53,759 bases of DNA, from the NCBI GenBank assembly GCA_021324185.1, contig JAJPJN010000146.1, forward strand, positions 1 through 53,759, written 5' to 3'. The DNA is from Terriglobia bacterium. Lineage in GTDB: Bacteria; Acidobacteriota; Terriglobia; Bryobacterales; Bryobacteraceae. Each line of letters opens with the position of its first letter. Position 1 is the first letter of the stretch. Shown here one piece after another: positions 931 through 49,860 of this stretch. Under the pieces are notes generated by a model. It was not told the DNA's origin. It worked only from the letters and a program-made list of their open reading frames with translations, and ran no database searches. The position numbers were made by a program, and so were the translations under genes.

Positions 931-2127
931 ATGAACGTCCTCTATTTGTCCCACTGTGTTCCCTATCCACCGAACAAAGGGGAGAAGATACGTGCATATC
1001 ATCAACTAAGAGCTTTGGCGGAAAAGCATAGCTTGCACCTTGCCTGCTTTGCGCGGAATGAAGAAGACCTGAAATTTGCGGAGCAGTTGAGGAGTTATTG
1101 CGATTCGGTCTACGCCGAGCCGGTTGGCTCACTGGCAATGGCTTCTGCTTTGCTCCGCTTTTTAGCCGGTTCAAGTATCAATATGGCCCTGTTCGAGAGC
1201 CGGTCTTTGCGTAAATACATCGCTGCACTTAGTAAGAAGATGCATTTCGATGTAGCAGTGGCATACACGGTTCCTGTGGCAACATACATGCCGCGTGACC
1301 TTCCCTTTGTCTTGGATCTGGTGGATGTAGACTCTGAGAAATGGTTTCAATATGCCAAAATGCGCACGCCTGGATCTCTGTATAGAATCGAGGCCGAGCG
1401 GCTGCGCGCGATGGAAGGCCGGTATTCTCGCGCCGCCTCCAGCGCCATCCTGACCACTTACAACGAAGCGGCATTGTTAAGATCATTCACTTCCGGCCGC
1501 ATCGGCTACGTAGAGAACGGAGTGAATTTTGAGGTTTTCCATCCTACCGCTGTTAAGGTGCCGCCCGAACTACAAGGCCGTAGATACCTGGTTTTCGTCG
1601 GCACCATGGATTACTACCCAAATATCGACGCTGTCCTATGGTTTGCAAAAGCAATTTTTCCTGAGCTAAAAAATCGCTTCCCCGATGTTGAATTTCTGAT
1701 TGTTGGACATAGGCCAACGCGCGAGGTATCGAACTTAGCTCAACTTCCAGGTATTACTGTGACCGGCGGAGTGCCCGATATCAGACCGTATATTCTGGGT
1801 AGCCGCGCAATGGTCGCGCCACTTAGGATTGCCCGCGGGATTCAGAATAAAGTGTTGGAAGCGTTGGCACTTGGCGTTCGAGTATTCGGCAGTGCAGAGG
1901 TTTGCATCACTTTCGGAGAGAAAGTACCGGCCGATCTGATCCGGTGTATTTCCGAACGAGATTACCTTACGAACCTCCCGTCGGCATTAGAACGCGAGCC
2001 CGCGAGGGCGCAGAGTGTACCTGACGAGATATACCAACGCTTCAATTGGGAGAACAACGGGGCACAGTTTCTGTCTATGGTCGAAGAAGTAGCTGGAAGC
2101 CATAGAGCGCAGGCTGTATTGCCGTAA
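931..2127 (+). CDS. Exosortase-associated sugar transferase (TIGR03087-like, GT4 fold)
   Basis: 398-residue glycosyltransferase predicted to add a sugar during assembly of the exosortase-associated exopolysaccharide, at the cytoplasmic face of the membrane. The N-terminus MNVLYLSHCVPYPPNKGEKI, the following RAYHQLRALA and the FVGTMDYYPN segment around residue 220 are typical of the stp1-type sugar transferases found beside exosortase (family named from memory as TIGR03087). The donor-site region PLRIARGIQNKVLEALALG (about 290-310) replaces the usual GT4 E-x7-E block. It is convergent with the exosortase gene, with a 2-base gap, so the two 3' ends nearly touch. The start ATG follows glyA by 42 bases. 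The donor and acceptor sugars cannot be read from sequence. Confidence 0.85.
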   Translation: MNVLYLSHCVPYPPNKGEKIRAYHQLRALAEKHSLHLACFARNEEDLKFAEQLRSYCDSVYAEPVGSLAMASALLRFLAGSSINMALFESRSLRKYIAALSKKMHFDVAVAYTVPVATYMPRDLPFVLDLVDVDSEKWFQYAKMRTPGSLYRIEAERLRAMEGRYSRAASSAILTTYNEAALLRSFTSGRIGYVENGVNFEVFHPTAVKVPPELQGRRYLVFVGTMDYYPNIDAVLWFAKAIFPELKNRFPDVEFLIVGHRPTREVSNLAQLPGITVTGGVPDIRPYILGSRAMVAPLRIARGIQNKVLEALALGVRVFGSAEVCITFGEKVPADLIRCISERDYLTNLPSALEREPARAQSVPDEIYQRFNWENNGAQFLSMVEEVAGSHRAQAVLP

Positions 2128-2129
2128 TG

Positions 2130-3062
2130 CTAGTTTTCCGCCACCAGCGTGGGCGCGCCAGCTCCTGTTTTTAAAGCTATCGAGGGCGCGGGCTTACGAG
2201 ACTCAATAAGCGCTAGAGACTTCGTAATGATTAGCAGCAAGCTGAACCCTACCGCGAAAACCATCCAGCCGGCCAGTGTGTGGTAGAACCCTTTTGCCAG
2301 TTGCTCGTTGTAGTCGGCAAGAATGGCTGTACCGGCTACCCGCACCACGTTTGCGGCAATCGCGATGACAGGCGAGATCACGAGCAATATCACTCTGCTC
2401 ACGCCTCTTTTGCAGAACAAAAATCCGAGCAGGATGGCCGAAGCAAACATCGCCGAAAGCGAATTCAACCCGCTGCATGCTTCCTCAACGCCCAGCGACA
2501 AATGCGCCAGGTTGATCACATTGCCGTCCCGGTAAACGGAAACACCAAATCCCTGAGCCACTCTTGCCGCTATATCGGAGGCAAAGAGTTGCAGTGGACC
2601 AGCCATTGAGTTGTAGACCAGAGTCGGGAGCGGTACAGCCGTCGCAAGCAGAATCATTGGGAAACTCAGACGCATGAGCGCCTGTTTTCCCCGAAATGTG
2701 TAGAGAATACCCGCCAGCAGAATAATCAGCGAAATGCGGGTGAGAAAGAACTCGCCCGCAGCTATTCCCACGCTGTACGTCAAGCAGCCGAGTACAACCA
2801 CCGCCAGCCCTCCCACCTGGCAGCTGGCCGGTGTACGGAACAGATACGCGCGCCGGCTCCAGGCGACGGCAATCGCTAATGGCGCGATGAGCAAGCCCTG
2901 GGAGGCGGTCTCCTGATTCCACCAATCCAGAACCAGGTCGCGAACGACAGGCGCATACATCAATGCAATCAGAATGGACCCTGCCGCTATCCAGAGATAG
3001 GAATTGGACTGCCTGGGGATAGGCGGGTCCGCGAGCGGCGTCGCGTGGGCAGGCATGGACAT
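2130..3062 (-). CDS. xrtA: Exosortase (EpsH/XrtA-type membrane cysteine transpeptidase)
   Basis: Integral membrane enzyme of 310 residues that recognises the PEP-CTERM tail of exported proteins, cleaves it and probably transfers the protein to an extracytoplasmic acceptor. About eight hydrophobic segments are visible. The three catalytic positions of the family are present: Cys196 in VEEACSGLNSL, Arg241 in ANVVRVAGTAIL and His261 in FYHTLAGW. The C-terminal EpsI domain fused to many XrtA enzymes is absent; a separate EpsI-like gene lies at 32632. Calling it XrtA (rather than another exosortase class) rests on the surrounding XrtA-type genes. A TGGCAG-N5-GTGCA promoter match lies directly upstream (3070-3087), which would leave almost no leader; the second Met (3056) is an alternative start. 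Likely substrates in this window are the proteins at 40494 and 41399. Confidence 0.93.
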   Translation of the reverse strand: MSMPAHATPLADPPIPRQSNSYLWIAAGSILIALMYAPVVRDLVLDWWNQETASQGLLIAPLAIAVAWSRRAYLFRTPASCQVGGLAVVVLGCLTYSVGIAAGEFFLTRISLIILLAGILYTFRGKQALMRLSFPMILLATAVPLPTLVYNSMAGPLQLFASDIAARVAQGFGVSVYRDGNVINLAHLSLGVEEACSGLNSLSAMFASAILLGFLFCKRGVSRVILLVISPVIAIAANVVRVAGTAILADYNEQLAKGFYHTLAGWMVFAVGFSLLLIITKSLALIESRKPAPSIALKTGAGAPTLVAEN

Positions 3063-3069
3063 TCGGCTG

Positions 3070-3087
3070 CGTGCACGTTTTCTGCCA
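3070..3087 (-). promoter_or_regulatory. Candidate sigma-54 promoter of exosortase gene
   Basis: Reads TGGCAG-AAAAC-GTGCA on the minus strand: GG and GC separated by 10 bases, as required by RpoN. The predicted transcription start falls at about 3061, at the annotated start codon, so either the message is nearly leaderless or translation starts at the second ATG. Confidence 0.5.
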
Positions 3088-3106
3088 TAGGTGTCAATCG
3101 TTTGAC

Positions 3107-3173
3107 AAATTTGGAGAGAACGAAAAAAACTTCGCTCAAAGCAAAATTATTGGGATAGTTTGTCAAATTTCTT
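3107..3173. promoter_or_regulatory. Inverted TTTGACAAA/TTTGTCAAA pair and CGAA-A7-CTTCG dyad in divergent promoter
   Basis: Between the divergent exosortase and FemAB-like genes there are two copies of a near-palindrome, TTTGACAAATTT at about 3109 and TTTGTCAAATTT at about 3161, in opposite orientation. Between them lies CGAAAAAAACTTCG at 3121-3134. Both lie upstream of each gene's -24 element, where an enhancer-binding regulator would act. Assignment as operator sites is inference. Confidence 0.4.
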
Positions 3174-3206
3174 CTGGAAACAAGACGCCGGGAGGGTGCT
3201 GGCGTA

Positions 3207-3224
3207 TGGAACGTGAATTGCCCG
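3207..3224 (+). promoter_or_regulatory. Candidate sigma-54 promoter of FemAB-like gene
   Basis: TGGAAC-GTGAA-TTGCC with the strict GG-N10-GC spacing. It would give a leader of about 50 bases before the ATG at 3285. Confidence 0.6.
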
Positions 3225-3284
3225 TCTGTGAAATGCCGGCGCGATCTCGCCTGCACATAAGCCCGAAATACAGCCAACGAAAGA

Positions 3285-4388
3285 ATGAGTTCTTGTTTGC
3301 CGACAACCTTAGCTGCCCGCTTTGAGTATCCGGAACGGAATTTCGCCCAACAGCACCTTCGAACTCGCCATCTTACCCCGAAGGAACATCCCCTTTGGGA
3401 CGAATATGTTCGCCAGCACGCGCTAGGCACTCCCTTCCACTTAACCGCCTGGCAGAAAACCATCGCCGAGGTCTTCCGGTTTGAGCCGATGCCCCTGGCG
3501 GTTTTTGAAAAGAACACGTTGCGGGGTGTGCTGCCGCTCTTTCTGGTGAAAAATCCGTTTGCCAAGAAAGCTCTGATTTCTATTCCGTTTGCGGTGTATG
3601 GAGGAGCGCTGGCAGATTCTGAGCCGGCCAAGGCGGCCCTGGCGGCGGAGCTGGTCAAAACTGCCCAGGGGCTCGGAGTTGAATACGCTGAGTTGCGAAA
3701 CGGTTATGAAGAACAGACACTTGGGTTCAACCGGGTGGATCGCTATGTGACATTCACGCAACAGATCCGCCCGGACGAAGAGCAGATCATGGGGACGATT
3801 CCGCGCAAGACCCGGTATATGGTGCGGAAATCTCTCAAGCAGTCGTTTGAGACTGAAATCCAAACAGGCCGGTCGAAAATCTTCGAAGATCTTTACGCGA
3901 AGAACCTGCGCAAATTGGGCACACCTTGCTTCCCGGCCAAATTTTTTGCTGCACTTGCCAAAAATTTCGGAAGCGATATGGACATTCGCCACGTGAAATT
4001 CGAAGGCAAAACGGCGAGCGCAGTGCTGACCTTCTATTTCAGAGATCAGGTACTGCCTTACTACGGCGCCTCGGACCCGGCGTTCAATGCCTTAGCTCCA
4101 AACAACTTCATGTACTACGACCTGATGAGATGGGCAGGGGCTCGCGGCTTTCGAACCTTCGACTTTGGACGCAGCAAAAGGAATGGCTCCGGATCCTATG
4201 ACTTCAAAGCGCACTGGGGCATGACGGAACGAGCGCTTCCGTACGAATTGCTCCTGGTCAAACGGAAGACGGTGCCGAACTTTACCCCTGCTAACCCGAT
4301 TTTTAGCCTTCCCAGGAAAATCTGGAGCCGCCTTCCGCTTCCGGTGACGCGTCTGGTGGGTCCAACTTTATTGAAATGGGTGCCCTGA
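3285..4388 (+). CDS. FemAB-like, exosortase-associated GNAT-fold protein (TIGR03019-like)
   Basis: 367-residue cytoplasmic protein of the FemAB/GNAT superfamily, in the subfamily that travels with exosortase and its exopolysaccharide genes. The relatives FemA/FemB use aminoacyl-tRNA to build peptide bridges; the acceptor of the exosortase-linked branch is unknown. Recognisable segments are HPLWDEYVRQHALGTPFHLT near residue 35, the LPLFLVKNPF strand, IPRKTRYMVRKS near 170, and the C-terminal FDFGRSKRNGSGSYDFKAHW block that is highly conserved in the group. The ATG at 3285 follows an AAAG-type ribosome site. It is transcribed away from exosortase and followed 24 bases later by a tRNA-like gene, an interesting neighbour because FemAB enzymes consume charged tRNA. 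Confidence 0.87.
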   Translation: MSSCLPTTLAARFEYPERNFAQQHLRTRHLTPKEHPLWDEYVRQHALGTPFHLTAWQKTIAEVFRFEPMPLAVFEKNTLRGVLPLFLVKNPFAKKALISIPFAVYGGALADSEPAKAALAAELVKTAQGLGVEYAELRNGYEEQTLGFNRVDRYVTFTQQIRPDEEQIMGTIPRKTRYMVRKSLKQSFETEIQTGRSKIFEDLYAKNLRKLGTPCFPAKFFAALAKNFGSDMDIRHVKFEGKTASAVLTFYFRDQVLPYYGASDPAFNALAPNNFMYYDLMRWAGARGFRTFDFGRSKRNGSGSYDFKAHWGMTERALPYELLLVKRKTVPNFTPANPIFSLPRKIWSRLPLPVTRLVGPTLLKWVP

Positions 4389-4412
4389 GAAGGTATGCTG
4401 ATTAAGTCTTCC

Positions 4413-4489
4413 AGGCGGATAGCTCAACGGCAGAGCGCCTCTAAACACACAGAGGAGGCTGCAGCGTTCGACTCCTGCTCCGCCTACCA
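4413..4489 (+). tRNA. tRNA-like gene with abnormal anticodon and T arms (Val-CAC-like?)
   Basis: The sequence folds as a cloverleaf. The acceptor stem AGGCGGA/TCCGCCT is perfect, with discriminator A and encoded CCA. The D arm is GCTC/GAGC, the anticodon stem CCTCT/AGAGG, the variable loop 5 bases and the T loop contains TTCGA. Two departures from the norm are visible. The anticodon loop has 8 bases (AAACACAC) and no U33. The T stem GCAG/CTGC carries an extra C before GTTCGAC. The last seven loop bases match the loop of tRNA-Val(CAC) except that both pyrimidines at 32-33 are A. Total length is 77. It may be a decayed tRNA, a non-decoding tRNA or a frameshifting tRNA; its identity is uncertain. 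Confidence 0.6.
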
Positions 4490-4552
4490 AGTTTTCCGGC
4501 TCTCAGTATCTGAACGTAAAGCAACAGCTTCTGCGGATGGCACCTACTTGCC

Positions 4553-5854
4553 ATGAGCCGGTTGTTACTCGTTTCTTACTTATTTCCCCCACTCGGCGGC
4601 GTCGGCGTTCAGCGTGCCTTGAGTCTGGCGAAGTATCTGCCTCAAAATGGCTTTGAGGTTCATGTCCTGCAGGCGCGCAACGCTGCCGGTCCGGTTTCCG
4701 ATCCGGCGTTGTTGCAACAAATCCCGCCGGGAGTTCGCATTCATCAGGCTTTCACCCCGGAGCTTCCATTCCACTTCAGACAGGCGTTGTGGCGGATCTT
4801 CGGCGGAAAATCCAAACCGGCCAACGCGACTCCTGCGGCCAAGAGCCGATCCTTCCGCCTGACCCGGATTCCCGTAGAAATAGGCCGGCGTGTCCTCTGC
4901 CCTGAGCCTGAAATCACCTGGGTACCGTTTGCTTTGCGGCGCGCGCGCCGGATTGTCCGGGAGTTCGGTATCGATTCGGTCGTAGTGACAGCGCCACCAT
5001 TTTCAGCGTTTCTCGTGGGAGTAGCCCTCAAGCGTGAATTCCCGCATCTGCGGCTCGTTGCGGATTTCCGGGACGACTGGCTCAGCTTTTATCTTGGCGA
5101 GTTCGAATATCAAAACTCCGACTATACCCGCAAGCGGGCCATGCAGATCGATCGGGAGACGATTCAAGCCGCCGATCGTGTCGTTGTGGTTACACAAGCG
5201 ATGCTGGACCGTTTCCGGGAACGATATCCGGATCAGAAATCCGAAAAATTCGTACTGATTCCTAACGGTTTTGATCCCGCCGTGCTCCCGGAACCCGCAG
5301 TACGCGCAAACCACCGTCCCAAGGTTGTCGTGAGCCACATTGGCACGGTATATTCCGCCAGTTCTCCGCGCTATTACCTGGATGCGCTGGAGTCTCTGCC
5401 GGAACACATCCGGGACGGAATCGAGACCAGGTTCGTCGGCCGAATTGCCGAAGAGGAAAAGCCGTTCCTGTCAAACCGCAAGGCGCAGGTGACCTCAGTA
5501 GGATTTCTGCCGCAAAAAGAGGCACTGAACGAAATGGTTCAGGCTGACTATTTGCTGCTCACTATGACGGACTCTGCCAGCCTGACAGGCAAGGTGTTTG
5601 AATATCTAGCCACCGGTAAACCGATTCTGGCGATTGCAGATGAGAACGGCGAAGTGGCCCGCATCTTGCGAGAAACAGGAGCGGGCTGGTGCGCCAGCCC
5701 GAATAAGCCTGACGAAATTCGCACGTTACTCAAAAGAGCTTACGAAAGGATCAGGGCCGGTGGCGCGAATTTCTGTCCTAATTGGAACGTCATAAGACGA
5801 TTTGAGCGCCCCCGGCTCGTAGCAGAATTCGGTCTTCTGGTAAAGAATGCCTGA
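4553..5854 (+). CDS. GT4-family glycosyltransferase
   Basis: 433-residue GT-B glycosyltransferase, probably membrane-associated and using a nucleotide-sugar donor. The N-terminal Rossmann half starts MSRLLLVSYLFPPLGGVGVQ, the usual PPxxGG acceptor loop of this group. The C-terminal half carries VSHIGTVYSASS, the GFLPQKEALNEM segment and the donor-site loop GKVFEYLATGKPILAI around residues 345-360. It is the first gene of a tight operon with the four sugar-nucleotide genes that follow (gap 21 bases), so its donor may be the diacetamido sugar they make. The ATG at 4553 has no clear Shine-Dalgarno sequence. Confidence 0.85.
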   Translation: MSRLLLVSYLFPPLGGVGVQRALSLAKYLPQNGFEVHVLQARNAAGPVSDPALLQQIPPGVRIHQAFTPELPFHFRQALWRIFGGKSKPANATPAAKSRSFRLTRIPVEIGRRVLCPEPEITWVPFALRRARRIVREFGIDSVVVTAPPFSAFLVGVALKREFPHLRLVADFRDDWLSFYLGEFEYQNSDYTRKRAMQIDRETIQAADRVVVVTQAMLDRFRERYPDQKSEKFVLIPNGFDPAVLPEPAVRANHRPKVVVSHIGTVYSASSPRYYLDALESLPEHIRDGIETRFVGRIAEEEKPFLSNRKAQVTSVGFLPQKEALNEMVQADYLLLTMTDSASLTGKVFEYLATGKPILAIADENGEVARILRETGAGWCASPNKPDEIRTLLKRAYERIRAGGANFCPNWNVIRRFERPRLVAEFGLLVKNA

Positions 5855-5875
5855 ATCCCTACTGAAATCGAACTG

Positions 5876-6928
5876 ATGTCCAAGACACGTACTCTACCTG
5901 GATCGCTCCCCCCCACGCCCCGCGTTTGTGTCGTGGGAGCCGGCTACTGGGGCAAGAACCTGATCAGGAATTTTGGGGAAATCGGATCACTCGGAGCGGT
6001 TTGCGATGTAAACAGACGGGCACTCGAGGATTTTTCACTCCGCTACCCTCACATCCGGATCTACGATTCTCTGGCCCAGGTGCTAGGCGACGACAGTATC
6101 GATGCAGTCGCGATTGCAACTCCTGCTGAGCAGCACCACTCCATGGTCATGGCCGCCCTTCGCGAGGGCCGGCATGTTTTTGTAGAAAAGCCATTAGCAT
6201 TGGACAGCGAAGACGGAATCGAGATGGTGGAGGCGGCTGAAAAGCGTGACCTCGTTTTGATGGTGGGGCATCTGTTGCGCTACCATCCGGCCATTCTAAA
6301 AATCAAAGAGCTGATCGACGCAGGAACTCTAGGCCGCGTGGATTACATCTATTCCAACCGGCTGAGCATGGGCAAGATTCGGAAAGAAGAGAATGCGCTC
6401 TGGAGTTTTGCCCCGCATGATATCTCGGTCATTCTCGCGCTCATCGGTGAAATGCCGGTACAGGTTACTGCCACCGGAGGTGCTTACCTGCAGCCGAACA
6501 TCGCCGACGTCACCGTCTCGAATTTACTGTTCGGGCGTGGGACTCGTTCTCACATTTTTGTGAGCTGGTTACATCCCTACAAAGAGCAAAAGCTGGTGAT
6601 TGTCGGGAGCAAGCAAATGATAGTTTTCGAAGATAGCCGGCTCGATAACAAGCTGATGTTGTTCGATAAACATATCGAGTGGAGAAACGGAAATATGGAG
6701 GCTAGCAAGCCGCAGGGGACCCCAATAGAGTTTGGCTCTGAGGAACCGCTACGCCGCGAGTGCGAGCACTTTCTCCATTGTGTCCTCAACCGAAAAACGC
6801 CATTGACCAATGGCCGGGAAGGATTACGCGTGCTGCAGGTACTTCAGGCGTGTCAACGATCCCTGCAGATGAACGGAGAGCCGGTGCAAGTGTTAGCTCC
6901 CCGCCTGCAACGCGTGCTTGCCGTATGA
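5876..6928 (+). CDS. wbpB: Gfo/Idh/MocA dehydrogenase, WbpB/WlbA-like
   Basis: 350-residue NAD(P)-dependent oxidoreductase. By analogy with WbpB/WlbA it would oxidise C3 of UDP-N-acetylglucosaminuronic acid, the step before transamination. The N-terminal nucleotide fold is seen as VCVVGAGYWGKNLIRNFGEIG (15-35); EKPLALD near residue 102 is the family's catalytic-lysine motif. The following genes encode an acetyltransferase, an aminotransferase and a 2-epimerase in the same order of chemistry as the WbpB-D-E-I route, which supports the assignment over a generic inositol dehydrogenase. Its stop overlaps the next start by four bases (ATGA), suggesting translational coupling. The UDP-GlcNAc 6-dehydrogenase (WbpA) that should make its substrate is not in the window. 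Confidence 0.82.
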   Translation: MSKTRTLPGSLPPTPRVCVVGAGYWGKNLIRNFGEIGSLGAVCDVNRRALEDFSLRYPHIRIYDSLAQVLGDDSIDAVAIATPAEQHHSMVMAALREGRHVFVEKPLALDSEDGIEMVEAAEKRDLVLMVGHLLRYHPAILKIKELIDAGTLGRVDYIYSNRLSMGKIRKEENALWSFAPHDISVILALIGEMPVQVTATGGAYLQPNIADVTVSNLLFGRGTRSHIFVSWLHPYKEQKLVIVGSKQMIVFEDSRLDNKLMLFDKHIEWRNGNMEASKPQGTPIEFGSEEPLRRECEHFLHCVLNRKTPLTNGREGLRVLQVLQACQRSLQMNGEPVQVLAPRLQRVLAV

Positions 6929-7551
6929 ACGCCGTTACTCTAGATAGGGCCAGTCACACGTCCTTCCAGCCTGCCTACGTTCACCCTTCCAGCTATATTG
7001 ACGAGCCGTGTCAGATCGGAGCAGGGACCAAAATATGGCATTTCTGCCATATCATGCAGAACTGCCGCATCGGCTGCGACTGCAATCTGGGCCAGAACGT
7101 GGTTGTATCACCGGGCGTATCGATCGGGAACAACGTGAAGATTCAAAACAACGTGTCCATCTACACCGGATGTATCATCGAGGACGATGTTTTTTGTGGC
7201 CCTTCCATGGTTTTCACCAACGTCATTAATCCGCGAAGTCACGTTCCGCGAAAAAACGAGTACAAACAGACGTTAGTTCGGCGTGGCGCTTCCTTAGGTG
7301 CAAACTGCACCGTGATCTGCGGCGTCACGATCGGCCAATACGCTATGGTGGGCGCCGGATCGGTTGTGACGCGCGATGTTCCGGATTATGCGATCGTCAC
7401 AGGAAATCCGGCACGGGTACGCGGATGGATGTGCGTTTGTGGTATCAAGTTGCAGTTTGCAACCGCAGTGCAGATAGAACAAGCCTGTTCTGCCTGCGGC
7501 AAGAAATATTTAAGAGCAAATAATCAAATAGTTCTGAAAGAACAAAACTAA
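6925..7551 (+). CDS. wbpD: Left-handed beta-helix N-acetyltransferase, WbpD/WlbB-like
   Basis: 208-residue acyltransferase expected to acetylate the 3-amino group of the UDP-2-acetamido-3-amino uronic acid using acetyl-CoA. Hexapeptide repeats run through residues 20-170 (IGAGTKIWHFCHI, IGCDCNLGQNVVV, IGNNVKIQNNVSI), and the IWHF histidine is typical of this subgroup. The start was set at the ATG overlapping the wbpB stop; the open frame extends further upstream, but that part is antisense-like and lies within wbpB. The C-terminus adds a CVCG...CSACG pair of cysteine knuckles that looks like a zinc ribbon, longer than the WbpD I remember. Next gene follows after 4 bases. Confidence 0.88.
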   Translation: MNAVTLDRASHTSFQPAYVHPSSYIDEPCQIGAGTKIWHFCHIMQNCRIGCDCNLGQNVVVSPGVSIGNNVKIQNNVSIYTGCIIEDDVFCGPSMVFTNVINPRSHVPRKNEYKQTLVRRGASLGANCTVICGVTIGQYAMVGAGSVVTRDVPDYAIVTGNPARVRGWMCVCGIKLQFATAVQIEQACSACGKKYLRANNQIVLKEQN

Positions 7552-7555
7552 AAAT

Positions 7556-8689
7556 ATGAGTATCCTCGCTGAAAAAACTGTTCCCTTGTTGGATTTGAAG
7601 GCCCAGCATGTTCAGATCAGGGACGAGGTGCTTTCAGCGGTCACACGCGTTATCGACGATCAGAAATTTATTCTCGGCGAAGAAGTTGAGAGCTTCGAAG
7701 CTGAAATTGCGCAATATACCGGCGCGCGCTACGCGATCGGGTGCGCTTCCGGATCAGACGCCCTGACCCTTGCCCTCATGGCGGCTGGCATAGGTCCGGG
7801 AGATCGTGTCGTCACAACGCCCTACACGTTTTTCGCAACTGCCGGAGCCATCTCCCGGGGAGGCGCGATTCCAGTCTTTGCCGACATCGAGCCCGACACC
7901 TTCAATCTCGACCCTTCGAAAACGGAAAGCGCATGTAAGAGCAATGGCGGCGTTCGCGCAATCATTCCGGTCCATCTCTTCGGCGCCGCTGCTGACATGG
8001 CGGCCTTCGTTGAATTAGGAAAGCGGTATAACGCGTTCGTGATCGAGGATGCCGCGCAGGCGGTAGGGGCCGAATATAACGGCCGTCCCGTCGGATCCTT
8101 CGGCCATATAGGCTGCTTTAGCTTTTTCCCGAGCAAAAATCTCGGCGCCTATGGCGATGGCGGCCTGCTTACCACGCAGGACGCGGCGCTCGCTGCGCAT
8201 TTGAAAGCACTGCGCATCCACGGCCGCACTGGAAAATACATTCACGACTGGATCGGCATAAACTCCCGTCTGGACGCCCTGCAGGCAGCCGTCCTTCGGG
8301 TTAAATTACGCTATCTCGACTCCTGGAGCGACCGGCGTTCTGAAAACGCTGATATCTATCGCAAGCTTCTCGCAGATCGCCAACTTCCCATCACCTTGCC
8401 CAACACGCTTCCTTATCAGACCCGCCATATCTACAACCAATTCGTGATTCGGTGCGAATCTCGAGATGAGTTGCAGGCGTATCTTAAAAAACACGGTATC
8501 GGAACCGAAGTCTACTATCCGGTTCCATTGCATCTGCAAAAGTGCTTCTCCGACTTGGGCTATAAAGCTGGTGACTTTCCAGTGAGCGAGAAGCTGGCGG
8601 CGGAAGCGCTCGCGTTGCCGGTTCATCCGGAACTCTCTGTCGATCAGATCGAATACATCTGCTCGACGATCGGCAAGTTTTATCAGTAA
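7556..8689 (+). CDS. wbpE: DegT/DnrJ/EryC1 sugar aminotransferase, WbpE/WlbC-like
   Basis: 377-residue PLP-dependent aminotransferase that would convert the 3-keto UDP-uronic acid to the 3-amino sugar, with glutamate as likely amino donor. PLP-binding features are clear: GCASGSDALTLALMA for the phosphate site, VIEDAAQAVGAEY with the ring-contacting aspartate, and the Schiff-base lysine in FFPSKNLGAYGDGG. GIGTEVYYPVPLHLQ near residue 320 is the family C-terminal signature. It is coupled within the operon: the next gene's ATG begins at the base after its stop codon. In the pathway it works between the WbpB-like and WbpD-like enzymes. Confidence 0.9.
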   Translation: MSILAEKTVPLLDLKAQHVQIRDEVLSAVTRVIDDQKFILGEEVESFEAEIAQYTGARYAIGCASGSDALTLALMAAGIGPGDRVVTTPYTFFATAGAISRGGAIPVFADIEPDTFNLDPSKTESACKSNGGVRAIIPVHLFGAAADMAAFVELGKRYNAFVIEDAAQAVGAEYNGRPVGSFGHIGCFSFFPSKNLGAYGDGGLLTTQDAALAAHLKALRIHGRTGKYIHDWIGINSRLDALQAAVLRVKLRYLDSWSDRRSENADIYRKLLADRQLPITLPNTLPYQTRHIYNQFVIRCESRDELQAYLKKHGIGTEVYYPVPLHLQKCFSDLGYKAGDFPVSEKLAAEALALPVHPELSVDQIEYICSTIGKFYQ

Positions 8690-9802
8690 ATGCGAATCGT
8701 TTCCATTGTGGGCGCGCGCCCGCAGTTCGTCAAACTCGCTGTGGTCGCGCGTGCAGCGGCGGCAGGCGAAATTGAGCACATCACAATTCATACCGGCCAG
8801 CACTATGACCACGGAATGAGTGACGTCTTCTTTGAAGAGTTACGAATCGCTGCGCCGAAACACCATTTGGGCGTGGGTTCCGGATCTCATGGAATACAGA
8901 CGGGTGAAATGTTGAAGAAACTGGAACCTGTCCTGGTCTCAGAAAATCCGGACTGGGTTGTGCTCTACGGGGATACCAACTCCACCCTGGCGGGCGCTGT
9001 TGCCGCTTCCAAACTGGGCCTCAAAACGGCGCATGTTGAAGCAGGGCTGCGCAGCTTTAACCGCCGCATGCCGGAGGAGTTGAACCGCATTGCTGCCGAC
9101 CATCTAAGCGATCTGCTCTTGTGTCCAACGGAAACAGCGATGCAAAACTTGCGTCGCGAAGGCCTTGAGGACCGTTCCGTGTTAACCGGCGACGTCATGT
9201 ACGACGCTTTCCTGGCGGATTCGCAGCGCGCGCAACGAGAGAACGAAAGCCTGCGCTTTAGCTGGCCACCGAAGAGTTACGCACTCGCAACCGTCCATCG
9301 AGCCGAAAATACCGACGAGCCCGACCGGCTGCTTGGAATCATGCGCGCTTTGGAACAGATCAGCTCTGAACTCTGCCCCGTAGTGCTGCCGCTGCATCCA
9401 CGTACACGCAAAGCGTTAGCTGATCTGGACTGGACCGGCCAGCGAGTGGTTACCATCGAGCCGCTTTCGTACTTACAAATGCTGCTGCTCGAGAAAAACG
9501 CTCGCATGATATTGACCGATTCAGGCGGCGTGCAAAAAGAAGCTTATTTCGCACAGGTTCCGTGCATCACTCTGCGCGATGAGACGGAGTGGGTTGAGAC
9601 GCTGGATAACAACTGTAATGTTCTCGCGGGGGCGAACGAGACGTCCATTATCGAAGCGGCTTTTCGGTCCATGAAAGCCGGCCCTTGGTCGTTGCTTTAC
9701 GGCAGCGGTGATGCCGGCATCACCATTGTGAAATTGCTCATCGCACAACGCAATCACGCAACACCTTATAACCCACTCGCGTGCCAGCTTCGAATCTGCT
9801 AG
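8690..9802 (+). CDS. wbpI: UDP-N-acetylglucosamine 2-epimerase (non-hydrolysing), WecB/WbpI-like
   Basis: 370-residue GT-B-fold epimerase. Conserved blocks are SIVGARPQFVK at the N-terminus, YGDTNSTLAGAVAASKL (about 85-100), HVEAGLRSFNRRMPEELNR (about 112-130), LATVHRAEN near 200 and LTDSGGVQKEAYF near 278, which contain the residues that bind the UDP and act in anti-elimination chemistry. In an operon with WbpB, D and E homologues it most likely inverts C2 of UDP-2,3-diacetamido-glucuronic acid to give the mannuronic isomer, but it could instead supply UDP-ManNAc. The last about 20 residues (QRNHATPYNPLACQLRIC) do not look like family sequence and may be a drifted tail. Confidence 0.88.
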   Translation: MRIVSIVGARPQFVKLAVVARAAAAGEIEHITIHTGQHYDHGMSDVFFEELRIAAPKHHLGVGSGSHGIQTGEMLKKLEPVLVSENPDWVVLYGDTNSTLAGAVAASKLGLKTAHVEAGLRSFNRRMPEELNRIAADHLSDLLLCPTETAMQNLRREGLEDRSVLTGDVMYDAFLADSQRAQRENESLRFSWPPKSYALATVHRAENTDEPDRLLGIMRALEQISSELCPVVLPLHPRTRKALADLDWTGQRVVTIEPLSYLQMLLLEKNARMILTDSGGVQKEAYFAQVPCITLRDETEWVETLDNNCNVLAGANETSIIEAAFRSMKAGPWSLLYGSGDAGITIVKLLIAQRNHATPYNPLACQLRIC

Positions 9803-17095: not shown

Positions 17096-18089
17096 TTTGT
17101 AGCGGCGTTACCTTGGATTTGCGGAAAGCGAGATACATCTCGCCGCCATTGGGTCTATTCTTTTTTTCTTTCCATTCCCACTCTCTTATTCGAATCAGCG
17201 TCCAATTCAGCAATCGTGATAAAGGATAAACCACGGCAGCAAAGGGCAAAAGCAGGTAAAAAGCCATTCTTTTCCAGAAAGGCCTTTTATCGCCTATCGA
17301 TCGAATGATATGTGGTGGCATAACGCGCAGCAGCGAAATCGGCATGCAAACCATCAGGAGAATGAATAACTCGATTGCCGCCCGGGTATTCTTGGCTCTT
17401 TTTGGGTTCAGCCAGTTGAATAGACCCCAATACAATTGAGCGGTCAGGTATTCAAAGCCACTCCAAATCTGGTTGGCAAAAAACGCATGCTCCAAACTCA
17501 GGCCATATTTTTCGCACAGCGACTGCAACTCAGCGGAGGTAAGGCGGCGCACATGCGAAATATCGTCGAGAAAAAACAGCCCGCTGCCGTCCTTCGAGAT
17601 GCCGTTACGTGCCAGGCTGGCCAATCGATGCTCAACAGAACCGGCATTTCCGCAAGGAAGGATGTGCAGAACTGTCCCATCCGGCTTCACTAATCTGGCG
17701 ATATCCGCCACCGTTGCTTCTAAATCCTGCACGTGTTCCAACACATGATGCGTGTATACGACGTCGTATGATGCTGAGGGCAGCGCCCGGTCGCCGAGCA
17801 GATGGTAGTTCACCTCGGCGCAGCGCGCGCGTGCTTTCTCGATGCCCTTCGGCGAGATGTCGCAGCCATGCACATCGAGATTCGGGAAGCGCTGCTTCAA
17901 CGCCATGGCAAAGGTGCCCGTACCGCAGCCGTATTCGAGAACCCTTGCATCCCGCGACGGAAGCGATGCCTCTATCAGCGACAGTACGCGGTCTAATTTT
18001 TCGTTAGACCAGTAATCCATCCACCCGCGCGCGTGGCGCTGATCGTAGAAGCTCTGGGGTGTCTGTTCGCGGGAACTGTTCTGCCTCAT
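17061..18089 (-). CDS. Class I SAM methyltransferase with C-terminal hydrophobic segments
   Basis: 342 residues. The N-terminal 230 form a methyltransferase domain: ARVLEYGCGTGTFAMALKQR (motif I, about 50), VHGCDISPKGIEKARA (motif II) and VVYTHHVLEHVQDLE (motif IV/V). The last 110 residues contain two long hydrophobic stretches (AAIELFILLMVCMPISLL and AFYLLLPFAAVVYPLSRLL), which should tether it to the inner membrane. The start overlaps the O-ligase stop by four bases and the end overlaps the next GT gene, so it is embedded in the operon. It may methylate a glycan intermediate or a lipid carrier-linked sugar; sequence does not tell. Confidence 0.85.
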   Translation of the reverse strand: MRQNSSREQTPQSFYDQRHARGWMDYWSNEKLDRVLSLIEASLPSRDARVLEYGCGTGTFAMALKQRFPNLDVHGCDISPKGIEKARARCAEVNYHLLGDRALPSASYDVVYTHHVLEHVQDLEATVADIARLVKPDGTVLHILPCGNAGSVEHRLASLARNGISKDGSGLFFLDDISHVRRLTSAELQSLCEKYGLSLEHAFFANQIWSGFEYLTAQLYWGLFNWLNPKRAKNTRAAIELFILLMVCMPISLLRVMPPHIIRSIGDKRPFWKRMAFYLLLPFAAVVYPLSRLLNWTLIRIREWEWKEKKNRPNGGEMYLAFRKSKVTPLQNVELELQSTHV

Positions 18090-19408
18090 GTTGTTAGCAC
18101 GCTCATCGATTCGGGTTGCAAGAGAGTTTCCGCCGGGGAATCTTCCAGCTCTGGAGTAGCTGCGGCAGCTTGAGCTGCCATTCTTCTAACCGCTATTCCG
18201 CATCCGGAAATGATCGCCATAAGATGGTATGGAAGATCGAAGTAGCATAGATTTCCGAAGGCGCCTCCGACTGCATAACCAGCTAGCGCCACCTGCGCCA
18301 TACCGACCAGATGGTAAGCCCATTCCGCTCCTTCGATGCTGCGCGCCTCTTTCCGCACGCGGCGGGCGGTCCACCATGTGCTGATTCCCAGCGCTAGAAA
18401 CAGGAACAATCCAACGTAGCCATGCTCTCCGAGGACTTTGAAGTAAATGCTATGGGCAGCATGGAAGTTTCCCGGATCCGGAGCATACCTTTCGAACAAT
18501 GCGGGCGTGAAGGCCTCGAATCCCCCGCCGTTTATGGGCCGGTCGGCCGCCAGATTGACAGCGAAGTGCCAGGCATTGATACGCCCCATAGCCGAATTGT
18601 CTTGTTCGTAAGTACCTACCGTTTGCATGCGGTCGAACCATGCCGAGGGCGCGTAGGCGTAAACGAGGCCCAGTAGAACGACAACGGCGGCTGTCGTCCG
18701 GATGCGGTGCTTGCTTTTCCAGCACAGCATGAGCGATACGCAAAGCAGGGCCAGCATACCGGCGCGCGAATAAGTGCCTATGACGGCAACTACACTGCAG
18801 CAGACGAGTGCGAGCAGACCGAACCTCACCCAGCGCCGCGGCGTGATTGCAACCAGATACATGATGAGAGGCACGACCGTCACAATGGCTAAGGCGAGGT
18901 CGTTGTTATCCGCAATAAAGCTAAAATCCGGCCCGTAAACGCGATTGTTGCCGCCGGTCCGTATCGTGCTAAACGCGCCACGCGCCGCGTAATACCCGAG
19001 TGACAGCACGATGACCCATACGAAGCTGTTCAGGCGCAAACGTGTCGTCATCATGGTCATAATTACGAGAACCATGAACATGATTTTCATGACCTGATTC
19101 CATTGACCCCATGCCGCATCCGCATTGAGGGCCGTCAACGTGCTCAACGTCATCCAGCAGCTAAACGCAACCAGTAGAACGCTTTCTCGTGTCAACGGAG
19201 GCCATTTCCTCTCGCGAGAGATCAGCAACGAGATCAGCAGAACGCTGACGATCACCATCGTGAATGGGAAATAATACGCCCTGTAATAACAGAGCCGGTG
19301 CGGATTCATGTAGGCAAACCAGGCGTACAAAAGAACTCCGATCCATGGTTTCCGTAGAGTAAAGAGGAGCCCGATGGCTGTGACTGCGAATACCGCGTAA
19401 TCTCTCAT
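18086..19408 (-). CDS. Exosortase-associated O-glycosylation ligase / O-antigen ligase family (TIGR03097-like)
   Basis: 440-residue membrane protein with about ten to twelve helices and the large periplasmic loop of the Wzy/WaaL class. The opening MRDYAVFAVTAIGLLFTLRKPWIGVL then AWFAYMNPHRL, the SFIADNNDLALA loop and GRINAWHFAVNLAADRPINGGGFEAF followed by AAHSIYFKVLGEHGYVGL are characteristic of the putative O-glycosylation ligase that accompanies XrtA. It would transfer or polymerise lipid-linked glycan in the periplasm, possibly onto PEP-CTERM proteins, many of which are predicted to be glycosylated. It lies 18 bases after the flippase gene. Confidence 0.92.
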   Translation of the reverse strand: MRDYAVFAVTAIGLLFTLRKPWIGVLLYAWFAYMNPHRLCYYRAYYFPFTMVIVSVLLISLLISRERKWPPLTRESVLLVAFSCWMTLSTLTALNADAAWGQWNQVMKIMFMVLVIMTMMTTRLRLNSFVWVIVLSLGYYAARGAFSTIRTGGNNRVYGPDFSFIADNNDLALAIVTVVPLIMYLVAITPRRWVRFGLLALVCCSVVAVIGTYSRAGMLALLCVSLMLCWKSKHRIRTTAAVVVLLGLVYAYAPSAWFDRMQTVGTYEQDNSAMGRINAWHFAVNLAADRPINGGGFEAFTPALFERYAPDPGNFHAAHSIYFKVLGEHGYVGLFLFLALGISTWWTARRVRKEARSIEGAEWAYHLVGMAQVALAGYAVGGAFGNLCYFDLPYHLMAIISGCGIAVRRMAAQAAAATPELEDSPAETLLQPESMSVLTT

Positions 19409-26560: not shown

Positions 26561-28477
26561 CTAAACTGCGGACACCAGCTCCTGAACTTCCGCTTTAGCG
26601 CAAGATCTTTGATGATGTGCATCCCAAAGCGCAAGCATCAACAAATTCCAAAGCTTACGGCTGTGGTCGTGTCTACCTGACTGATGTTCGCTAAACAGAC
26701 GCCGCGCCTCGCTGGTCCTGATGTAGCTTTCCATCTCATCGCGAAGTACTGTTTGCTGGTAGAGCGATTTCAAACTGGTCCGAAACCAGCGCGCTAGCGG
26801 CACTTGAAAACCCATCTTGCGGCGGTCTATCACTTCAGCCGGCACATACGGGCGCACAGCTTGCTTGAGAATGTGTTTACCTGTGCCAAAACGCACCTTC
26901 AACGCACTCGGCAGCTTGCACGCGATTTCGCCCAATCGATAATCAAGCAAGGGAGACCGGCTTTCGAGCGAATACGCCATCGTGGCCCGGTCGGCTTTAA
27001 CCAGGATGTCTCCCGGTAAATAGGTTTGCAGGTCGACCGCTTGCATTTGCTCGAGAGGTGTAAGTTCACGGACATCGTGGAACAGTTTGCGAAAGTAATC
27101 TCTAGGAGAGTAAGCCTCGCCGCCGAGTAAGCCCGGGGACAAAATTCGTTCCAGCGCCTCATCCCGAAAAGCGGTCATCGAGGTGAAATAAGCGTCGCTC
27201 AGTGTTCGCGCCAAATTGCCAAGCAGCGTCTTTGCGCGAAATACTTGCGGCATATAGTCGAGCTTCGGATAGTATTGGCCCGCAACTCGAAACACCGGAT
27301 CCCGAAACCACGCCGGAAAGCACCTGCGAAGCCGTTCTTCGAACACTCCGTGGATGTAGCGCCGGTAGCCGCCAAATAACTCATCGGCTCCGTCGCCACT
27401 CAGTGCTACCGTGACATGCTTTCTTGTCATCCGCGATAGATACAGCATGGGCACCGCAGAAGAATCGCCGAATGGCTCATCGAACGTCTCGATCAGCTTG
27501 CCAAGCACGTCCCCGATGGAGAGAGAAACAACCTCTTCGCGATGTTCTGTGCCATATCGCTCGACAACTAAGCGTGCGAACGGCAACTCATCAAAATTCT
27601 TCTCTGTGAAGCCAATCGAAAACGTATTGACGCGAGCGCCTGTTTGAGCCATTAAGGCCACAACCGAACTCGAATCCACTCCTCCACTTAAAAACGCTCC
27701 GAGCGGCACATCGCTTATCATTCGGCAACGTACGGCATCGGCCATTTGGGCTCTGAGCGCCTCAATAGCGTCTGCATGCGGATATTCGCATTCGCCGCCA
27801 AATGGCGGGGTCCAGTAGCGCTGTATGCGTACGCCCGATTCCGTAACGACCAGGCTGTGCGCGGGCGGAACCCGATGCACATCCTCATAGATACTGCGAG
27901 GGTCCGGCACATAGGAAAAGGCCAGAAAGTCCGCCACGCTTTGCCGGTCAACGGGGCGGTCGAAGGCGGGAAGAACGGTTAGGCTTTTTAGCTCCGATGC
28001 AAAGCAAAAGCGAAATCCGGGAATGCGTTCGGAATAATATAAGGGCTTTTTGCCGAAACGGTCACGGCATAACAGTAACTTGCGCTGGCGGCGATCCCAG
28101 ATCGCGAACGCGAACATCCCATTCAAATATTCAGGTACGCGTTCACCTACTTCTTCGTATAAGTGGACAATAACTTCGGTATCGCAACGGGTCGCAAATA
28201 CATGCCCTTTTTTTTCCAGATCCTGCCGCAGCTCAACAAAGTTATATATCTCGCCGTTGAACGTAATTTGAATGGACCCATCTTCATTCCCCAGCGGTTG
28301 CGCCCCCCCAGCCACGTCGATGATGCTCAGGCGCCGGTGCCCCAGCGCCACCCGGTCATCAAAAAACTCGCCGTATGCATCCGGCCCGCGATGGCTGAGA
28401 CGATCACACATCAGCCGCAACCAGGATCGATCGACGCGCTCATGCCTGGCGGCGATGAAACCCGCAATACCGCACAT
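26561..28477 (-). CDS. Asparagine-synthase-like amidotransferase, exosortase-associated (TIGR03108-like)
   Basis: 638-residue two-domain enzyme. The N-terminal Ntn glutaminase begins MCGIAGFIA with the catalytic Cys2 and contains LSHRGPDAYGEF and TFNGEIYNF. The C-terminal synthetase domain has the PP-loop GAFLSGGVDSSSVVAL near residue 260 and ALSGDGADELFGGYRRY. It should use glutamine to amidate a carboxylate in an ATP-dependent reaction. In exosortase loci the target is thought to be a uronic acid in the exopolysaccharide rather than aspartate. The diacetamido-uronic acid pathway in this window supplies such a carboxylate. It lies 14 bases after the small Xre gene. Confidence 0.92.
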   Translation of the reverse strand: MCGIAGFIAARHERVDRSWLRLMCDRLSHRGPDAYGEFFDDRVALGHRRLSIIDVAGGAQPLGNEDGSIQITFNGEIYNFVELRQDLEKKGHVFATRCDTEVIVHLYEEVGERVPEYLNGMFAFAIWDRRQRKLLLCRDRFGKKPLYYSERIPGFRFCFASELKSLTVLPAFDRPVDRQSVADFLAFSYVPDPRSIYEDVHRVPPAHSLVVTESGVRIQRYWTPPFGGECEYPHADAIEALRAQMADAVRCRMISDVPLGAFLSGGVDSSSVVALMAQTGARVNTFSIGFTEKNFDELPFARLVVERYGTEHREEVVSLSIGDVLGKLIETFDEPFGDSSAVPMLYLSRMTRKHVTVALSGDGADELFGGYRRYIHGVFEERLRRCFPAWFRDPVFRVAGQYYPKLDYMPQVFRAKTLLGNLARTLSDAYFTSMTAFRDEALERILSPGLLGGEAYSPRDYFRKLFHDVRELTPLEQMQAVDLQTYLPGDILVKADRATMAYSLESRSPLLDYRLGEIACKLPSALKVRFGTGKHILKQAVRPYVPAEVIDRRKMGFQVPLARWFRTSLKSLYQQTVLRDEMESYIRTSEARRLFSEHQSGRHDHSRKLWNLLMLALWDAHHQRSCAKAEVQELVSAV

Positions 28478-49771: not shown

Positions 49772-49860
49772 TGGTGCCCGGGGTGGGACTTGAACCCACA
49801 CTCGCCTTGCGGCGAAAAGGATTTTAAGTCCTTTGCGTCTGCCGATTTCGCCACCCGGGC
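49772..49860 (-). tRNA. tRNA-Leu (TAA)
   Basis: 89-base class II tRNA on the minus strand. Acceptor GCCCGGG pairs with CCCGGGC, discriminator A and encoded CCA; anticodon loop CTTAAAA with anticodon TAA on an AGGA/TCCT stem; long variable arm CGCCG..AAGGCG; T loop GTTCAAGTC. The 3' end faces the IS remnant and toxin-antitoxin pair, a common arrangement for tRNA-targeted integration. Confidence 0.95.

Follow-up and report, generated by a model that had tools for sequence, protein, structure and literature searches.

The tRNA gene and its neighbour femAB

The 53,759-nucleotide (nt) contig JAJPJN010000146.1 of a Terriglobia bacterium of the family Bryobacteraceae (assembly GCA_021324185.1), analyzed here over its whole length and referred to as the window, carries an unusual transfer RNA (tRNA) gene at positions 4413-4489, which begins 24 nt after the end of a gene for a FemAB-family protein. 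The two genes and the parts of the tRNA are the following.

3285-4388, forward strand: femAB, encoding a FemAB family XrtA/PEP-CTERM system-associated protein (TIGR03019) of 367 amino acids, the presumed partner enzyme
4413-4489, forward strand: FemAB-linked tRNA gene, derived from tRNA-Val, defined by sequence, Rfam model RF00005, covariance model R1 and an anatomy script
4413-4419 with 4479-4485: acceptor stem, AGGCGGA/TCCGCCT
4422-4436: D arm, stem GCTC/GAGC
4438-4442 with 4451-4455: anticodon stem, CCTCT/AGAGG
4443-4450: anticodon loop of 8 nt without U33, AAACACAC
4446-4448: C34, A35 and C36, counting from the 3' side
4461-4478: T arm, GCAG(C)G-TTCGACT-CCTGC, with an extra C at 4465
4486 and 4487-4489: discriminator A73 and encoded CCA

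The acceptor stem, D arm, anticodon stem, T loop, discriminator A and CCA are all intact, and the anatomy script places an A where U33 would stand. A preliminary description of the locus had drawn attention to the 8-base anticodon loop without U33 and to the additional T-stem C in a gene with intact acceptor stem, D arm and CCA, all of which can be read directly in the sequence. The covariance-model scoring that it proposed assigns the gene to the tRNA family, with a cloverleaf and a score of 42.8 bits (E 4.6e-08 in a 301-base search) above the RF00005 gathering score of 29, although the gene lacks the combination of a 7-nt loop and U33. Model R1, which was built from ten FemAB-linked copies, scores it at 102.9 bits, the window copy being itself one of the ten rows used. 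The gene was not reported by cmscan with default filters, by ARAGORN or by the RF00005 search of its own genome, and because ARAGORN and the default Rfam filters miss it, other tRNAs coupled in this way may likewise escape notice. At two further loci (L032, 298-1605; L033, 336-1823) mechanical extension of the open reading frame (ORF) runs in frame through the tRNA into the downstream glycosyltransferase, and automatic annotation may conceal such a tRNA within a protein N terminus.

The FemAB protein scores 323.4 bits against TIGR03019 (cut-off 260.35) and 29.3 bits against the Pfam family FemAB, PF02388 (cut-off 24). A structure model computed from 30 homologues, with a mean predicted local distance difference test score of 91.6, has the double-GNAT fold of FemX. 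Its best structural match is Staphylococcus aureus FemX (6snr; Z 28.4, root-mean-square deviation 3.5 over 299 residues), followed by Weissella viridescens FemX (Z 27.1), its peptidyl-RNA complex (4ii9; Z 27.0), FemA (26.9) and the tRNA-dependent synthases Sba18 and Sbb17 (Z about 26; Sba18 26.2). MprF-type enzymes come next at Z about 19 and other GNAT proteins reach at most 17.9; sequence profiles likewise point to FemX. The common fold alone does not prove FemAB activity, and aminoacyl transfer by the protein is a prediction. The peptide-bridge synthesis envisaged in the preliminary description finds no support, the protein belonging to the XrtA/PEP-CTERM-associated subfamily.

Conservation, covariation and linkage to femAB

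The RNA is conserved well beyond its surroundings. Over the 15 copies in the window's family its mean pairwise identity is 0.858, against 0.467 for the 20 nt before it (0.454 when shuffled) and 0.492 for the 40 nt after it (0.471 when shuffled). Over the 18 complete copies, found in 18 genomes of 12 genera, 97.4% of cells pair, 7 of the 21 pairs change on both sides (shuffled mean 2.3) and the covariation score is 0.208 (shuffled 0.103), with none of 500 shuffles as high on any of these measures. Kinship among sequences can push scores above such shuffles, a concern addressed by sliding the partners by 1-3 columns, whereupon the covariation score falls to 0.037-0.087. Compensatory changes occur in the anticodon and acceptor stems; six unpaired cells at one T-stem pair reflect an alternative place of the bulge, invisible to a fixed structure. 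This pattern points to an element kept by selection and excludes decay. The cloverleaf is assigned because of this comparative evidence. The minimum-free-energy fold of the window RNA, taken as a single sequence, differs from the cloverleaf; of four further RNAs folded singly, those of genomes G113, G587 and G493 gave the cloverleaf or a near form and the canonical tRNA-Val(CAC) of the window's own genome did not, and single-sequence folding was left out of the evidence.

The distribution of the gene was established with FemAB and R1 searches. A protein scan of genome contigs for FemAB yielded eight loci, all with the tRNA-like gene behind femAB; these belong to genomes in the counts that follow and are not counted twice. 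In the order, an R1 match at E ≤ 1e-19 (80.1-104.4 bits), a limit chosen after the phylum scan, occurs in 15 of the 250 genomes scanned, and each of these matches follows a FemAB gene over the family cut-off in the same orientation and at a distance of 8-228 nt. Two copies of a divergent subtype occupy the same place (G580, 63.4 bits; G613, 62.3 bits), and G609 has the first 27 nt of such a copy behind femAB, the contig ending within it. A FemAB over the cut-off occurs in 42 genomes of the order sample, 41 of them assessable since in G498 the contig stops short of the downstream side, and 18 of the 41 loci carry the tRNA (one truncated). The phylum sample of 396 genomes contains three matches above 80 bits, all behind femAB (the window's own genome, G328 and G113, the last from another class), and the next best match, at 78.6 bits, and 26 other fetched loci are canonical tRNA-Val. 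Scanning the class of G113 for more copies gave one in 38 genomes, G113 itself. In 12 genomes of the same FemAB tree group without an adjacent tRNA, an unlinked copy was sought and the 30 best-matching loci were all canonical tRNA-Val; R1 does not score the divergent subtype above canonical tRNA-Val, so that copies of this subtype may escape detection where they are not linked to femAB. Among the loci inspected, L202 (G330:C24:83789-83864) is a tRNA-Val(TAC) whose D arm is abnormal; it neighbours a tRNA-Asp, and the FemAB gene of its genome lacks a tRNA beside it.

In all 18 complete copies femAB lies directly upstream of the tRNA (gap 8-228 nt, median 23.5). Behind the tRNA, 11 copies have a homologue of the TIGR03087 glycosyltransferase and four an exosortase; the window has a different glycosyltransferase there, and in G578 and G525 neither type was found. 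As the downstream gene varies while femAB is constant, the bond is with femAB. In a 77-row tree of FemAB, with the label of G609 set manually, the 19 tRNA-bearing rows all fall inside one of two deep groups, of 43 rows, and the other 34 rows have none. The label requires at least 5 changes on this tree, where shuffles give 17.2 and none of 500 goes as low, and an early gain with several losses, or transfer, would both fit. The specialised tRNA tied to a FemAB-like gene that the preliminary description suspected is thus supported by a conserved, covarying copy at the same place in relatives. Of the search that it suggested beside FemAB genes, the expectation of finding a tRNA there, and no random sequence, was borne out; that outcome is qualified by many FemAB genes that stand without one.

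The constancy of this position would also suit a cis-acting tRNA-like element of the femAB transcript, either a processing site for RNase P or RNase Z or a regulator sensing aminoacyl-tRNA synthetases or tRNA, and tRNA-like elements of mRNAs that bind these synthetases are on record in sections of PMC9976931. This explanation leaves the variable downstream gene and several conserved features without a reason, for a mere cleavage site has no need of the CCA, A73, T loop and standard 15:48 pair (16 of 18 copies: A-U in 14, G-C in 2) that are kept, and we consider it improbable.

Valine ancestry and altered decoding features

The sequence comparisons agree on an origin from tRNA-Val, as the preliminary description had rightly suspected. 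All 27 canonical matches inspected from the phylum scan are tRNA-Val, and among the tRNAs of the window's own genome, which holds separate tRNA-Val genes for CAC, TAC and GAC, R1 scores Val CAC at 70.5, Val TAC at 64.0, Lys at 55.7 and Val GAC at 55.6 bits. The acceptor stem (7/7 pairs, with A1-U72), the D stem (4/4) and A73 are complete in each of the 18 copies. Positions 34-36, counted from the 3' side, read UAC in 10, AAC in 6 and CAC in 2, leaving A35 and C36 invariant. The bacterial valine identity set given in PMC9976931 comprises A73, G3-C70, U4-A69, A35 and C36, and all 18 copies have A73, A35, C36 and G3-C70. A1-U72 and the short D loop also occur in some distant acidobacterial tRNA-Val(GAC) genes, A1 being present in 8 of 60 canonical tRNA-Val controls; a gene of this kind may be the ancestor of the element, which may then have travelled with femAB.

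A second, dedicated valyl-tRNA synthetase (ValRS) was not seen among the 18 genomes with a complete copy. In 16 of these, including the window's own, there is one ValRS match over the cut-off, partial or interrupted in some; G587 and G113 show only a fragment or a below-cut-off homologue.

A 7-nt anticodon loop with U33 is the general rule for tRNA. The loop size is also treated as the norm in passages of PMC7609411. Among the 18 copies, the loop has 7 nt in eight, 8 nt in five and 9 nt in five, and U33 is present in three. In 15 of the 18 the 5' strand of the T stem contains an additional nucleotide, which is seen in none of four canonical tRNA-Val genes run through the same script; the window copy thus lacks the unbulged 5-bp T stem of a decoding tRNA-Val. 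All 60 canonical controls (43 distinct; 3 from the own genome, 27 from the phylum scan and 30 from the 12 genomes without an adjacent tRNA) have a 7-nt loop with U33, a comparison tempered by their being ARAGORN calls among the top R1 matches and therefore biased to normal loops.

These figures bear on the possibility that the gene is an ordinary minor tRNA-Val that still decodes under relaxed loop rules and stands in the operon by accident. The NAC triplet at 34-36 in 18 of 18 copies and the normal loop with U33 in three would agree with it, and yeast mitochondria translate with an 8-nt loop, according to PMC7609411. Set against this are the 15 of 18 copies without U33 and the 10 of 18 with 8- or 9-nt loops, neither of which occurs in the 60 ARAGORN-called tRNA-Val genes, together with a canonical valine set in the own genome and the linkage of all strong matches to femAB. 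We regard decoding as decidedly improbable.

Proposed function and genomic context

We propose, with a probability of roughly 0.7, that the gene encodes a ValRS-charged, non-decoding tRNA that supplies FemAB in an exopolysaccharide/exosortase pathway. The tRNA would be transcribed together with femAB, or from its own promoter, and processed to a mature CCA-ended form. Since the valine identity nucleotides are kept, the ordinary ValRS probably charges it, through A35-C36 and A73. EF-Tu grips the T stem of tRNA, and the T-stem bulge would in most copies lead to poor EF-Tu binding, just as the altered loop, in which U33 and the 7-nt size are lost or relaxed, would lead to poor decoding; the charged tRNA would therefore stay outside translation. 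FemAB would bind it via the nearly invariant acceptor arm and move the aminoacyl group onto an amino group carried by an exopolysaccharide, a glycan or another precursor of the XrtA/PEP-CTERM-type pathway, the acceptor being perhaps an amino sugar. As regards transcription, a scan of 2900-6200 gave three terminators (4.3 in shuffles) and two promoters (1.2 in shuffles). A weak promoter-like site at 4371-4399 (9/12 matches) stops 13 nt upstream of the tRNA, a fitting position for a promoter of the tRNA alone, but the number of sites is chance-like and the 20 nt upstream of the tRNA are unconserved.

The genes around the pair are consistent with such a pathway, and those near it are listed first.

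931-2127, forward strand: TIGR03087 PEP-CTERM/XrtA glycosyltransferase
2130-3062, reverse strand: exosortase of the EpsH family (TIGR02602, 157.1 bits, cut-off 105.55), below the exosortase A cut-off (TIGR03109, 162.9 bits against 208)
4553-5854, forward strand: GT4-type glycosyltransferase directly behind the tRNA (Pfam Glyco_transf_4)
5876-9802, forward strand: genes for a Gfo/Idh/MocA oxidoreductase, a hexapeptide acyltransferase, a DegT aminotransferase and a UDP-GlcNAc 2-epimerase, by family matches

Three more genes of exosortase-system type lie on the reverse strand (18086-19408, 26561-28477 and 38107-40362); their matches are the O-glycosylation ligase TIGR03097 over its cut-off and, as below-cut-off best matches, the XrtA amidotransferase and the PrsT TPR protein. 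The exosortase, TIGR03087, TIGR03097 and XrtA amidotransferase/PrsT matches together lead us to read the window as an exosortase-type exopolysaccharide region. The gene types at 5876-9802 match those of UDP-2,3-diacetamido-uronic acid synthesis (Wbp-type), and as a guess these genes are a possible source of the acceptor sugar.

A real non-decoding tRNA could in principle serve another enzyme of this cluster, with FemAB a mere neighbour, as the window encodes more envelope enzymes, for example the amidotransferase-like protein and the O-glycosylation ligase. FemAB is nonetheless the constant neighbour of the tRNA and the only enzyme of a tRNA-dependent type recognised among the 18 typed window ORFs, which makes this explanation as hard to credit as decoding. 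The sober alternative of the preliminary description, a decaying tRNA-Val(CAC) copy stranded by chance beside femAB, would account for the odd loop, bulged T stem and low covariance-model score in a genome with three intact tRNA-Val genes elsewhere, but it is refuted by the recurrence of the gene in this position in 18 complete copies, by conservation against background flanks and by compensatory stem changes, and its probability is negligible.

Several observations weigh against a ValRS-charged, non-decoding tRNA supplying FemAB, in addition to the bias of the controls. The score of 42.8 bits is lower than those of 46 of the 47 tRNAs listed for the own genome, all except tRNA-Sec. The 15:48 pair is A-C in G606 and G580; the copies of G482, G622 and G113, with U33 in a loop of 7 nt, might still be able to decode; and G629, G580 and G613 are without the T-stem bulge. 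U4-A69 of the valine set is missing, all 18 copies having C4-G69, although C4 is likewise found in the genome's own canonical tRNA-Val genes, so that this lack is not discriminating. No tRNA accompanies 23 of the 41 assessable FemAB loci of the order. Outside the window's family, 31 genomes of the phylum sample have a FemAB over the cut-off; with G235 at a contig edge, 30 are assessable and 29 have no tRNA, the exception being G113. None was found in the five plasmid-borne FemAB loci of other phyla that were looked at, and the assemblies are mostly drafts. It follows from the loci without a tRNA that FemAB has no general need of a linked one; for such FemABs in the same family an ordinary tRNA must suffice, or their activity must be another.

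The proposed system has a precedent in S. aureus, where FemXAB uses non-proteinogenic tRNA-Gly isoacceptors (Giannouli et al. 2009, as cited in parts of PMC4052509 and PMC4810233) with features of weak EF-Tu binding (same passages). These are likewise specialised tRNAs, thought to escape EF-Tu, that feed a FemABX transferase, and a member of that family is present here 24 nt upstream, its use being presumed. T-stem changes are common to both. The S. aureus species are also changed at G18G19, whereas the window tRNA keeps GG there, the second G being C in 3 of the 18 copies. In the window tRNA the T-stem bulge alone suggests weak EF-Tu binding. The window tRNA further differs in being of valine type without glycine identity, in the alteration of loop size and U33, in having its gene directly behind that of the presumed transferase and in an exopolysaccharide/exosortase setting in place of peptidoglycan. 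Valine identity, genetic coupling and pathway set the window system apart from this precedent.

Other known systems are less close. W. viridescens FemX with Ala-tRNA-Ala (4ii9) shares the double-GNAT fold and reads a tRNA acceptor-stem pair (in sections of PMC4052509), which fits the near-invariant acceptor arm here; it differs in using tRNA-Ala and a peptidoglycan precursor. Sba18 and Sbb17 (9wqy, 9wqw, 9wqx) share the FemX-like fold and aminoacyl transfer to a small acceptor, that acceptor being an antibiotic, streptothrisamine in two of the entry titles, and the titles name no dedicated tRNA. The selC* tRNA-Cys, with a T-stem bulge at 51a, and the allo-tRNAs are also natural bacterial tRNAs with unusual arms, according to excerpts of PMC7609411. 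Their acceptor branch is there given as 8/4 or 9/3, in contrast to 7/5 plus a bulge and an altered anticodon loop in the window, and this geometry rules out an allo-tRNA or selC*-type identity. The plasmid TIGR03019 FemABs (Vibrio, Photobacterium, Sphingomonas, Chelatococcus, Nitratidesulfovibrio) belong to the same family as the window protein and lie, in the annotated cases, in or near XrtA-system genes; as noted above, they differ in having no tRNA.

A broader form of the proposal, to which we give even odds, holds that the tRNA was fixed beside its transferase gene, mostly at close range across the 12 genera, that its anticodon now serves mainly as a tag for ValRS, and that a ribosome-orthogonal valyl-tRNA decorates acidobacterial exopolysaccharide or an exosortase-sorted surface polymer, giving the XrtA-associated FemAB a role. 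If true, this would be a naturally evolved tRNA outside the genetic code that keeps its synthetase and that was revealed by its coupling to the user enzyme. Among the open-licence papers listed and read we found no statement of the substrate of TIGR03019 FemAB, no paper on a pairing of FemAB/PEP-CTERM with a tRNA and none on a dedicated tRNA with aminoacyl-tRNA and a biosynthetic gene cluster, which does not imply absence elsewhere; the first PEP-CTERM paper (PMC1569441) has neither FemA nor tRNA as the start of a word. The function of this FemAB becomes directly testable, the tRNA predicting the amino acid, and the 18 natural variants offer a comparison of how a charged tRNA avoids EF-Tu and a scaffold for orthogonal tRNAs.

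Other tRNA genes of the window and its genome were also recorded. The sole window tRNA reported by ARAGORN is a canonical tRNA-Leu(TAA) at 49772-49860 on the reverse strand. Elsewhere in the own genome, a tRNA-Sec gene lies at G000:C30:31764-31855 (L057), and ARAGORN calls a 73-nt class-I 'tRNA-Ser(GCT)' with a short variable loop and an imperfect acceptor stem at G000:C29:21519-21591 (L046; L215). A normal class-II tRNA-Ser(GCT) is also present (L044), and L046 is possibly another non-decoding tRNA-like gene.
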